From Chloroflexaceae bacterium (GTDB taxonomy: Bacteria; Chloroflexota; Chloroflexia; Chloroflexales; Chloroflexaceae), in contig JANWYD010000006.1 in the NCBI GenBank assembly GCA_025057155.1, forward strand, positions 1 to 64,000: a stretch of 64,000 bases of DNA, in the 5' to 3' direction. The translations under genes and the position numbers were made by a program. Below, piece after piece: positions 9,883-57,531 of the stretch; the first letter of the stretch is position 1; every line of letters begins with the position of its first letter. A model generated the notes under the pieces. That model was not told the DNA's origin and made no database searches. It saw only the letters and a list, made by a program, of their open reading frames with translations.

Positions 9883-9905
9883 GCTTCTATGCTCCTTCGC
9901 TGAAT

Positions 9906-10043
9906 AGTCTGTAAAGTACGTTTCCGGCATTTCCGCCCCCCTCCCGGCCTCCCCTCGTTGGGAGGAGGAGCGAGGCGCCCTCCCCCAGTGGAGGAGGGGT
10001 GGGGAGGGGGCAGAGGTTTAGCGGAAAACGTTGTTTACAGACC
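9906..10043. mobile_element. AGTCTGT-ended palindromic element, copy A
   Basis: The ends AGTCTGTAAAGTACGTTT and, inverted, GGTCTGTAAACAACGTTT mark a 138-bp element whose interior is a C-rich arm mirrored by a G-rich arm. It lies directly upstream of the binding-protein ribosome site, so it may carry or disturb that promoter. The rest of the spacer to 10410 shows nothing recognisable. Confidence 0.65.
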
Positions 10044-10410
10044 AGCAAGAGACCAATCTCAAAACCATTGACGGCCAGGCGGTTAGGGGCAGGGAAATCC
10101 GATCTCCTCTCCAGGAGGACCGCGCCCTGCCAGGGACAAGCCTGAACGCCTGTCGCGCGCGGCCTCGCAGCGTTTTGGGATCGTCTCTAAAGATGGCCAG
10201 CACCGGCCAGATGTCAGGAATCTGTTCCCAGGGAGAACCCGTGCATGCAGGGGAATTGCTGAGGTAGGGCGAACAAACCGGCGATTCTTCGTGGCGCCCT
10301 CGCCACAGCCTTCGATGTTCCCGACGCGCTTCATTCCGCGCCCCTCGCGGGGGAGGAATGCCAGGCAAACCACTGTATCCCTTCAAGGATGCTGCTTGGA
10401 TCCTATGGCC

Positions 10411-11021: not shown

Positions 11022-11237
11022 GGGTGTGACGTAAAGTTCTGCACGCGCCGCGGCCTACCGGCCCGCCGGGAGCCTGATGATCATTAAGAAACAAATCCGG
11101 TATAGCCCGCGCAGGCGGGCTTCGCATCGGCAGCCCGCGGCTTCAGCCGCCGGGCTACAGGGCGAATGCCGGTTTACATTCTTAATCTTCATCAGCCGCC
11201 GGGCGAAGGGAAGCGGGCACGATGTTTCGTCACACCC
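11022..11237. mobile_element. GGGTGTGACG-ended element carrying a 114-bp copy
   Basis: GGGTGTGACG at 11022-11031 is mirrored by CGTCACACCC at 11228-11237, with weaker pairing further in. The same end sequence bounds the 300-bp element at 24930. The 114-bp palindrome (11078-11191) lies wholly inside, so one repeat has landed in another. Confidence 0.5.
11078..11191. repeat. 114-bp palindromic element, copy 3
   Basis: Ends TGATCATTAAGAA and TTCTTAATCTTCA, length 114 bp, with the two internal hairpins. It shares its left end with copy 2 and its right end with copy 1. Confidence 0.85.
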
Positions 11238-13111: not shown

Positions 13112-13138
13112 TGTAGTGCTTTGATGTGGCTTATTAGT

Positions 13139-13278
13139 AGTCTGTGAATGAAGTTTCCTTACATTTCCGCTCCCCCTCCCAACCTCCCCCCGTTGGGGGG
13201 AGGCGCCGGACTCCCTCCCCCGGAGGGGGAGGGTTAGGGAGGGGGTGGAGGTTTAGCGAAAGACTTCGTTTACAGACT
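13139..13278. mobile_element. AGTCTGT-ended palindromic element, copy B
   Basis: Ends AGTCTGTGAATGAAGT and, inverted, AGTCTGTAAACGAAGT. A C-rich arm is mirrored by a G-rich arm. It is directly followed by a second copy at 13286, giving a tandem pair with a 147-bp period, upstream of the histidine kinase gene. Confidence 0.75.
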
Positions 13279-13285
13279 AATTAGT

Positions 13286-13414
13286 AGTCTGTGAATGAAG
13301 TTTCCTTACATTTCCACCCCCCTCCCAATTTCCTCCGTTGGGGGGTGGGAGCCAGACTCCCTCCCCCGGAGGGGGAGGGTTGGGGAGGGGGTGGAGGTTT
13401 AGCGAAAGACTTCG
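13286..13414. mobile_element. AGTCTGT-ended palindromic element, copy C (3' truncated)
   Basis: Nearly identical to copy B over its left half, but it stops after AGCGAAAGACTTCG and lacks the TTTACAGACT end. The tandem arrangement suggests duplication after insertion. Confidence 0.7.
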
Positions 13415-13520
13415 CGGAGAGCTGCCGGGTTGTAGCCCGATCCGGAGGGTCAGGCTACCAGGCTTCACAGCACAGACGACAACAAGTTGTTCGGTTCCCC
13501 GGAAGGCGAAGCCTCGGAGC

Positions 13521-15731: not shown

Positions 15732-15928
15732 CTGACCGGAATGCTAAACCCCTGCTTCTCCCCAACCCTCCCCCGCCGGGGGTGGAACGCGTCGGTCGGA
15801 ATTGGCATAACGGGCGTATACCCCAACCCTCCCCCGCCGGGGGTGGAAGGCCGGCTCCTAACCTCGACGGGAGCAGGCCGGGAGGGGGGCGAACATGCCA
15901 GGAACCTTGCTTTACGGACCACTTCGTT
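15732..15928. repeat. GC-rich palindromic spacer with internal duplication
   Basis: CCCCAACCCTCCCCCGCCGG with following GGGTGGAA occurs twice (about 15759 and 15820), and the right side ends in a degraded TTTACGGACC, resembling the AGTCTGT-ended elements. It is non-coding. Confidence 0.5.
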
Positions 15929-15978: not shown

Positions 15979-16521
15979 ATGCCCTACGCTCACCACCCGT
16001 ATCCACCCGATCCCGGACTGGCCGGCGGGCTGCCGGAACTGCTCTACCGGGCGCGGCAGTTCCGGGCGGCCCTGGACGCGCGGATCGGCCCCGATGAACT
16101 GGCCGCGGCGCAGGCGCTGCTGACGCCCGCCGAGTGGCGGCTGTTCACGATGATGCCGCGCTACGATCAGCGCCACTGTCTGGACGTGTACGCCACGCTG
16201 GTGGCCGCGGGCCACGCCGATCCGCTGCTGCTGCGCGCTGCGCTGGTGCACGACTGCGGCAAGATGGACGACGCGGGCCGCCCCATGGCCCTGGGGTGGT
16301 ACGTGCTGGCGACCATCCTCAAGCGCGCGCCGGGACTGTACCTGCTGGCGGCGCGCCTCCTGCCCCCGGTCGCCCGCTATGCCGAACACGCCTGGCGCGG
16401 CGCGCGCATGGCCGCCGCCGCTGGCAGCCCGCCCGAGGTGATTGAGACGCTGCGGCGCTACCACGATCCCGCGCCCGCCGGTCGCGCCGCGCTGCTGCGA
16501 TGGGCCGATGAGCAGCATTGA
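15979..16521 (+). CDS. HD-domain protein
   Basis: A 180-residue protein with the HD-superfamily metal motif VHDCGKMD (about 87-94) after an upstream histidine in QRHCLDVYATL, and a later histidine pair region (YAEHAWRGAR). Such proteins are metal-dependent phosphohydrolases, often acting on nucleotides; the substrate cannot be read from the sequence. AGGAAAG just upstream and conservation favour the ATG at 15979 over a longer frame that would translate the octamer array. It precedes scpA by 135 bp of palindromic spacer. Confidence 0.8.
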   Translation: MPYAHHPYPPDPGLAGGLPELLYRARQFRAALDARIGPDELAAAQALLTPAEWRLFTMMPRYDQRHCLDVYATLVAAGHADPLLLRAALVHDCGKMDDAGRPMALGWYVLATILKRAPGLYLLAARLLPPVARYAEHAWRGARMAAAAGSPPEVIETLRRYHDPAPAGRAALLRWADEQH

Positions 16522-16529
16522 GGGGTCCT

Positions 16530-16656
16530 CACCCTCCCCCTGGCCCCCTCCCTCTCCACCTGCAGTGGAGAGGGAGGGGGCGCCGAGCGCAGCGAGGCGG
16601 GGGAGGGTGAGGAGCGGCGCCCCAACCCCGGAGGGGGCCAGGGGGAGGGTGAGGAA
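16530..16656. repeat. GC-rich palindrome between HD gene and scpA
   Basis: CTCACCCTCCCCCTGGCCCC is mirrored by GGGGCCAGGGGGAGGGTGAG, with an inner CTCTCCACCTGCAGTGGAGAG hairpin split around the centre. The right edge supplies GTGAGGAA, the ribosome site of scpA. Confidence 0.6.
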
Positions 16657-17418: not shown

Positions 17419-17469
17419 GCGATCCAGCCGCCGGGCGGTGCGCTCTGATCATCTGGGAGCTGCATTAGT

Positions 17470-17796
17470 AGTCTGTAAACAAAGTCTTTCGCTAACCCCT
17501 CGCCCCCTCCCCAACCCTTACTCAGGTGCAGGGTTTTCCGGCCCATCCTCGCGTCACATTCGCCATCCGGGGCATCGGGACGCCCAACTCCCCCCTCTCC
17601 GCCGTAGGTGGAGAGGGGGGCGTGGGGGTGAGGATCGGAAGCGCATTGGAATGCCGAATACCCCTTCTCGCTCGAAAAACCCTGCACCTGAGAGCTCCCC
17701 AACCCTCTCCCGCCGGGGGAGGGAGTCCGGCGCCTCCCCCCAACGGGGGGAGGCTGGGAGGGGGGCGAAAATGCAAGCGAACGCGCTTCACAGACC
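17470..17796. mobile_element. AGTCTGT-ended element, copy D, interrupted by a second element
   Basis: The outer ends AGTCTGTAAACAAAGT (17470) and ACAGACC (17790-17796) match copies A-C. Removing the 176-bp insertion and one copy of the 12-bp direct repeat restores an element of about 139 bp whose C-rich and G-rich arms pair as in copy B. Confidence 0.75.
17507..17706. mobile_element. 172-bp MITE-like element with 12-bp target-site duplication
   Basis: The insertion is bounded by a perfect 17-bp inverted repeat, CTCAGGTGCAGGGTTTT at 17521-17537 and its complement at 17676-17692. The direct repeat CTCCCCAACCCT flanks it at 17507-17518 and 17695-17706, and the intact AGTCTGT-ended copies have this sequence only once. 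It encodes no protein; an inner palindrome (CCCCCCTCTCC...GGAGAGGGGGG) fills the centre. Confidence 0.85.
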
Positions 17797-18358
17797 GCCA
17801 CTGTCGTCCCACCACTTCACGGCCCGCCCCTCTCAGGGAAACCTCTGTAGCGTTTCTCGAAAGGATTGACCTGCAACGATGGTGGCGCGAGCGCAGCGAG
17901 CCACACCGCTCGGTGTCCTCAGTGGATCAAGCATTCCGGTCAGTGCTCTAAAACCCGCGTGAGCAACATTTCATCCGCGTGTCGCCTGGCAGTTCACGCT
18001 CAGGCGGCGATCGACGGCGTGACGGGGCGCGGGGTCTGCGTCTTCTCGCCGCTGCCGTTCCGCCCGCCGCAGGCGCGCTGGCCGATGTGAAAAGGGCCCG
18101 TAGCCGCCGGCCGCTGGCCGGCAGACGCTGGCCGGCGGCTTTCCGTCGCCGCGGCGCCGCCGCAATTCGGGCGCGCCACGAGGTGACAGGCTTTTCATTC
18201 CGCGCGCGGGGAGGGGGTCACAGGTTTCTCATACGCCCGTACTACCGTACCGGGTAAACGTATGACCAGGCTGCGCTACCACGTAGTACCCAAGGATGTC
18301 GTCTCCGGCGGGCAGCGGAGACCGTTGTGTTCATCGTCGTTGAGACAAGGAGCAGAGC
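17797..18358 (+). other. Spacer before the MBG-domain gene
   Basis: No gene is seen. The inverted stretch CCGGCCGCTGGCCGGCAGAC around 18107-18140 and the hairpin GTCTCCG/CGGAGAC at 18301-18322 are the only structures. The hairpin would lie in the 5' leader of the downstream gene, whose ribosome site is AAGGAG at 18348-18353. Confidence 0.4.
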
Positions 18359-21169: not shown

Positions 21170-21585
21170 CGGCCCCCCTCCGGCCTCACGAATGGCGGAA
21201 AGGTTCCGCCCCCGGCCTTCTTGACCGGCAGGGGCGCGCGGCCGGTCGCTCGCCCGGCAGGCGGCGCACGCGTCGCCCTGAGCGCAGCCCGCCCCCCTCC
21301 CCGCCTCCCCCCAACGGGGGGAGGCGCCAGGCGCCCTTCCCGGCAGGGGAGGGTTTTGGGTCGTCAGAAAGCCCAATTCCCTCTCTCCCGCGCACGGGAG
21401 GCGGGGTAGCAAGCCGCCGGCATCCCCCTCTCCACCTGCGGCGGAGAGGGAGGGTGGGGCATTAGCGCATTCAGATGTGGAAAACCTCTTCTCCCTCAAA
21501 AACCCTGCACCTGCGCAGGGTTTGGGAGGAGAGTGCGCTTAAGCCCCGCCAGGGGTTCCATAGGAAGGGGTAGGCCCGCGGAACC
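21170..21585. repeat. Repeat-filled spacer with a fragment of the 172-bp element
   Basis: Two palindromes (CCTCCCCCCAACGGGGGGAGG near 21297-21321 and the CTCTCC...GGAGAG pair near 21425-21452) are followed at about 21463-21513 by the right half of the CTCAGGTGCAGG element, ending AAACCCTGCACCTG. No gene is seen. Confidence 0.55.
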
Positions 21586-50646: not shown

Positions 50647-50663
50647 GGTAGCAGGGGAAGCTC

Positions 50664-50713
50664 GCAGGTGCAGGTTCTTGGTACGAGAAGGGGTTTTCGG
50701 CGTTCCAGTGCGC
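50664..50713. repeat. Fragment of the 172-bp element (inverted)
   Basis: GCAGGTGCAGGTTCTTGGTA and the following 30 bases are the complement of the right half of the element at 17507. The other end is missing. Confidence 0.55.
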
Positions 50714-50860: not shown

Positions 50861-50974
50861 TGAAGATTAAGAATATAAACCGGTATTCGCTCAGTAGCCC
50901 GGCGGCTGAAGCCGCGGGCTACCGATGCGAAGCCCGCCTGCGCGGGCTACACCGGCTTTAATTCTCAATCATCA
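50861..50974. repeat. 114-bp palindromic element, copy 4
   Basis: Ends TGAAGATTAAGAA and TTCTCAATCATCA, again 114 bp, inserted against or inside a half copy. The rest of the spacer to 51161 shows only a TATACT box at 51090-51095 and a CTGACGGC/GCCGTCAG hairpin near 51017-51043. Confidence 0.85.
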
Positions 50975-57335: not shown

Positions 57336-57531
57336 GGGCTGCGCCCTTCTCAGGTGCAGGGTTTTCCGGCGTATGCTCGCATCGCATGCGCCATCCGGGG
57401 CATCGGGACGCCCAACTCCCCCCTCTCCCGCTCGCGGGAGAGGGGGCGGGGGGTGAGGACCGTAACCGCATTGGAATGCCGAAAACCCCTGCTCGCCCCA
57501 AAAACTCTACACCTGAGAGGGGCTGCGCCCT
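57336..57531. mobile_element. Second 172-bp MITE-like element with 12-bp duplication
   Basis: CTCAGGTGCAGGGTTTT at 57349 and an imperfect complement ending at 57517 bound a 169-bp core similar throughout to the one at 17507. GGGCTGCGCCCT flanks it exactly at 57336-57347 and 57520-57531. Joining the flanks restores a GGGAGGGC...GCCCTCCC palindrome, so this copy also landed inside another repeat. Confidence 0.85.

Follow-up and report, generated by a model that had tools for sequence, protein, structure and literature searches.

Small mobile elements that depend on the transposase of a larger relative are familiar in bacteria. Among those with IS4-family ends are the IS231-related mobile insertion cassettes of Bacillus, which are non-autonomous and are flanked by duplications of 10-12 bp, and IS231 prefers sites within another transposon, Tn4430. 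IS630-type MITEs, such as RUP and Correia elements, are also known, and the IS630 elements themselves canonically duplicate the dinucleotide TA. Elements of the IS4 family, on insertion, duplicate about one helix turn of their target; the tabulated lengths are 9 bp for IS10, 8-9 bp for IS50 and 7-8 bp for ISPepr1 (De Palmenaer et al. 2008, PMC2266710). Here, we analysed a window of 64,000 nucleotides from a Chloroflexales genome, in which a small element had been predicted to lie inside another one. Two unrelated MITE families were found there, the inner within the outer. We estimate at about 90% the probability that the inner element is a non-autonomous IS4-type MITE nested in an older IS630-type MITE and mobilised by an IS4-type transposase. 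The analysis supports the original prediction as essentially right, with small corrections to the exact ends of the inner element and to the length of its duplication, which is 11 bp. The features are collected in Table 1.

Table 1. Features of the nested locus and related copies in the window.
Feature	Position	Strand	Basis or remark
Outer element, TAGTCTGT...ACAGACTA family, split by the inner element	17469..17797	+	
Inner element (176 bp), a non-coding MITE in the YT-CTCAGGTGYAGGGTTTT family	17519..17694	+	Family-wide end comparison; 239 TIR matches genome-wide
Left terminal inverted repeat of the inner element	17521..17537	+	
Right terminal inverted repeat of the inner element	17676..17692	-	
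Left target duplication copy CTCCCCAACCCT, the 11-bp family duplication CTCCCCAACCC plus T	17507..17518	.	
Right target duplication copy CTCCCCAACCCT	17695..17706	.	
C/G-rich hairpin internal to the inner element	17583..17627	.	Fold of the element, z -6.4
Intact outer copy without inner element	9905..10044	+	
Intact outer copy without inner element, 5-bp duplication ATTAG	13138..13279	+	
Outer copy in tandem with the 13138..13279 copy, right end decayed	13285..13423	+	
Second complete inner-family copy	57347..57519	+	Perfect 11-bp duplication GGGCTGCGCCC at 57336-57346 and 57520-57530

The two ends of the inner element carry the perfect 17-bp inverted repeat CTCAGGTGCAGGGTTTT, as had been predicted, and the inverted match extends to 20 nt at 95%. 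The same sequence, CTCCCCAACCCT, stands on both sides of the element and is separated from the inverted repeats by TA on the left and AG on the right. The predicted length of 172 bp has to be raised to 176 bp, because the two bases beside each inverted repeat belong to the element across the family (YT...AR). The predicted 12-bp duplication is present at this locus, but the comparison of flanks gives 11 bp as the family length. Since the left end of the window copy, TA, is slightly off the family YT, the most plausible reading of its 12 bp is the family duplication of 11 bp with one further base, present by chance or mutation. The element is non-coding, in agreement with the prediction, and the family has no conserved ORF. 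With up to 3 mismatches allowed, the window holds six matches to the inverted repeat against 0.1 expected. Inner-MITE ends that are single or decayed, with no detectable partner end, were seen at 21499-21515 and 50663-50679.

The genome-wide search for the 17-bp repeat, which the original prediction had proposed as a check together with a tabulation of flanking repeats, gave 239 matches in 5.13 Mb at up to 2 mismatches. The reversed control pattern gave none, which excludes chance. The family comprises about 120 copies. Their length between the ends of the inverted repeats is 124-175 bp, with a mode at 169-172 bp, and the median pairwise identity is 0.88 over 80 rows, including a few redundant placements of one copy. 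Flanks were analysed for 67 complete copies from the window's own genome; as a null, each left flank was compared with the right flanks of other copies, which preserves composition. When two bases per side were assigned to the element, the 11-bp repeat had a mean identity of 0.71 against 0.32 for the null. A copy's own flanks agreed at 8 or more of 11 positions in 48 of the 67 cases (19 perfect), compared with about 3% for mismatched flanks. In nearly all copies, the bases adjoining the inverted repeat are TT or CT. On this evidence, the family has the ends YT-CTCAGG...CCTGAG-AR and duplicates 11 bp of its target. The inner element thus has the properties of a MITE: it is short, non-coding and multicopy, with a 17-bp inverted repeat, a duplication of fixed length, an empty site and ends common with full-length elements. 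A search for a symmetric consensus among the targets revealed just a weak G...C at the outer positions. A general liking for hairpin-forming targets was not supported (median z -0.30 versus -0.06 in GC-matched windows). We found no description of the family in the open-access literature on IS4-derived or nested MITEs in Chloroflexi.

In the case of the outer element, intact copies are about 137-143 bp long. The genome contains about 235 matches to its ends, or about 120 copies, and the family was present in 16 of the 70 genomes searched. The window copy actually ends in TAGTCTGT...ACAGACCG; its right end is degenerate, with CG instead of TA, and its own 5-bp duplication is not preserved (ATTAG vs CCACT). 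Elsewhere in the family, 5-bp repeats of the form NTNAN lie outside the terminal TA and are perfect in 25 of 73 copies (permutation p < 5e-5). Genome G042 contains a full-length element of 1197 bp (L227:323-1519) whose ends are almost the same and which is flanked by ATAAG twice. Its two ORFs match HTH_32 (61.8 bits) and DDE_3 (82.9 bits), and by these protein matches, a DDE_3 domain with an N-terminal helix-turn-helix as expected of IS630, the relative is IS630-type. The outer family and this relative both appear to duplicate 5 bp (NTNAN), and in this they deviate from the canonical TA. No description of an IS630-like branch with a 5-bp duplication was found in open-access papers.

Several other repeats were observed in the window. 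Three Rfam CRISPR-DR28 matches (1428-1451; 11103-11126, -; 50926-50949, +) are isolated and do not form arrays. Each lies inside a palindromic dispersed repeat whose borders are ATTAAGAA...TTCTTAAT (GTAGCCCGGCGGCTGAAGCCGCGGGCTACC...), so the CRISPR calls are probably false and due to a REP/MITE-like element. A dispersed repeat of about 105 bp at 17845-17951 has many matches in sister species (e.g. G002) and in the own genome. A C/G-rich dispersed repeat between two genes, at 16521-16617, reaches 94% in sister species.

The original prediction held that a transposase encoded elsewhere must act on the inner element, and that a full-length insertion sequence with the same ends should be sought. 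Such elements, with ends CTCTCAGGTGTAGGGTTTTTG, were found in related Chloroflexales: one of 1375 bp at L063:690-2064 (G009, Oscillochloris sp. isolate RM1_1_4) and one of 1362 bp at L062:1501-2862 (G048). The G009 element encodes a 375-aa protein with a DDE_Tnp_1 domain and the IS4 signature Y(2)R(3)E(6)K, present as YRLRAWIEASYKAMK at 241-255. It scores 28.5 bits with PF01609 (cut-off 23) and 86.7 bits with NF033591 (cut-off 152). D81, E248 and the spacing fit D(60-110)D(100-150)E, and the position of the second Asp (143) is occupied by Gly. The second catalytic Asp is present in the transposase relics of G048 and of the window's own genome; the Gly is possibly an error in a low-coverage metagenome contig. 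There is no clear target duplication around the G009 element. The G048 element is decayed but has a perfect 11-bp duplication, CATCCCCCCTC; the 11 bp of this copy and of the MITEs lie within the range of the IS4 family (about 10 bp, 8-13). About 230 bp from it, a diverged inner MITE with similar ends was observed (L062:1099-1268), and the presence of such a copy beside an IS4-type element in another family of the order indicates that the inner MITE family is old. Related ends, of the CTTTCRGG type, also occur in additional IS4-type members of the family. Two other members (L188:1334-2743 and L194:1286-2740) are enclosed by the arms of long inverted repeats rich in G/C, and their flanks are inverted, not direct. 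The MITE and the full-length elements have only the terminal ~21 bp in common, and an origin of the inner MITE by simple internal deletion of a full-length element is not shown by these sequences.

A search of the window's own assembly for an intact IS4-type transposase or a full-length partner found none. It contains half an IS4-type gene (G000:C7), with 41% identity, which is interrupted by a MITE copy and is closest to elements with other ends. This relic, the own genome's only one of an IS4-type transposase (L065:1326-1510), is truncated exactly at the MITE copy with no direct repeat, which suggests an adjacent deletion. The only PF01609 match above threshold in the own genome was rejected as a partner: it belongs to a different insertion sequence, with ends CAGGGCTTGAGCAAAG, which is ISAs1-like by inspection. 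Searching the PDB with the transposase yielded no useful match.

The arrangement in the window had been taken as direct evidence of movement, on the grounds that intact outer copies at 9906 and 13139 contain the target once. They do contain it once, but each with one mismatch (CTCCCCACCCCT near 9906 and CTCCCTAACCCT near 13139). The exact target is found in the tandem neighbour at 13286 (13376-13387), where CTCCCCAACCC occurs exactly once (13377-13387, - strand). At the window locus itself, a clean orthologous empty site is absent, the scpA/MBG-protein intergenic region being rearranged in all four sister species; intact outer copies were therefore used as related empty sites. A doubled target in uninterrupted outer copies had been named as a finding that would speak against insertion. 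In none of the 35 such copies does the target occur twice, even when one mismatch is allowed. The other such finding, relatives with no empty site, was answered for a different copy (G000:C9:1450-1619, duplication GAGGYGTAGCC). Its orthologous site is empty in the sister species G003: the aligned flanks, 1.4 and 1.3 kb long with identities of 90.8% and 91.6%, join there in an uninterrupted palindrome. The inner family has thus moved in the past. The pair of CTCCCCAACCCT copies could instead have arisen by chance within a C-rich palindrome of low complexity, with no transposition, and the motif is indeed common in C-rich repeats and also occurs outside any outer copy at 15758 and 52812. This is hardly credible, given the undoubled intact outers, the empty site and the far better agreement between flanks of the same copy than between flanks of different copies with equal composition. 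It is also conceivable that the transposase of another family, recognising similar ends, mobilised the inner element, since the assembly lacks an intact IS4-type partner. We consider this very unlikely: two full-length IS4-type elements have near-identical ends, one of them with the same 11-bp duplication, and duplication of about one helix turn is the habit of the IS4 family (PMC2266710).

Insertion into outer elements was found repeatedly. The flanks match an intact outer element in 19 of the 67 inner copies, about 16 of them across the junction. Twenty insertions were mapped on the outer consensus; ten fall at positions 37-47 (CTCCCCAACCC) and the others at 58-102, where about eight other sites are used. 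Of the ten at 37-47, six point one way and four the other. They include the window copy, which was positioned manually, as the automatic register is shifted by its 12-bp repeat. As the outer elements make up about 0.3% of the genome (if there are about 120 copies of 138 bp), insertions are enriched in them on the order of 75-fold relative to the whole genome; against intergenic DNA alone, the enrichment would be an estimated several-fold to tenfold. A single entry of the inner element into one outer element, followed by multiplication of the composite as a unit by way of the outer ends, might also fill many copies. Three composites (C12:116002, C18:70283 and G003:C743) agree with the window copy along the entire nested stretch, at the same site and in the same orientation, as this would predict. 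The occurrence of both orientations at one site and the use of the other outer sites make it improbable, as does the relatedness of the outer parts. All seven composites from which the outer element could be extracted are closest to an intact outer element and none to another composite; two of the nine hotspot composites were left out of this comparison since their outer element was not extractable. With both orientations present, the site was used independently at least twice, and orientation and relatedness together make the hotspot insertions look independent and repeated. The 11-bp outer site may be either recognised or merely a place that tolerates insertion. We hold it possible, but rather doubtful, that the IS4-type machinery specifically recognises it as a safe landing pad and that, at the same time, the outer family represents an IS630-like branch duplicating 5 bp (NTNAN).

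The preferred reading, insertion of an IS4-type MITE into an older outer MITE, implies the following course. An IS4-type DDE transposase, provided in trans, would bind to the ends (17-21 bp), excise the inner element and join it to a target with an 11-bp stagger, and gap repair would convert this target into the direct repeat. Here, the target was CTCCCCAACCC in the C-rich arm of an older outer MITE with IS630-like ends; the same site was struck repeatedly in other copies of the outer family. We infer mobilisation in trans from the full-length relatives with the same ends, from the presence of only half a gene in the own assembly and from the duplication length typical of IS4; the cut-and-paste chemistry is likewise inferred. 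The IS4-type partner was presumably lost from the window's genome or is unassembled in it.

Where MITEs are nested and the duplication is intact, the relative age of two insertions can be read off, and past movement is proved directly. This case is unusually complete: the copies number more than 100, the duplication length is exact, one copy has an orthologous empty site, both elements have full-length relatives, and there is a hotspot. With its two MITE families, each of about 120 copies, this Chloroflexales genome is tractable for the study of target choice by IS4-type transposases and of an IS630-like family with a 5-bp duplication. Nested MITEs are otherwise of a familiar kind; the notable parts are the MITE-on-MITE hotspot and the 5-bp duplication.

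The outer element resembles the RUP and Correia elements in its length of about 140 bp, its lack of coding sequence, its high copy number and its ends, which are common with an IS630-type element (PF13358, DDE_3). It differs from them in the 5-bp NTNAN duplication in place of the canonical TA. The inner element is similar to the IS231-related cassettes in its dependence, its IS4-family ends and its duplication length; the cassettes, however, belong to another phylum, have other ends and are larger. The likeness of the full-length partners to the IS4 family consists in the DDE_Tnp_1 domain, the Y(2)R(3)E(6)K signature, a single ORF, a duplication of about one helix turn and a length of ~1.36-1.38 kb, and their 5'-CT ends recall the IS10, IS50 and ISPepr1 subgroups (PMC2266710). 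In contrast, the G009 protein scores under the cut-off of the curated NCBIfam profile IS4_2, the ends CTCTCAGGTGTAGGGTTTTTG match no subgroup signature tabulated for IS4, and the combination of 5'-CT ends with an 11-bp duplication is absent from that table (PMC2266710).
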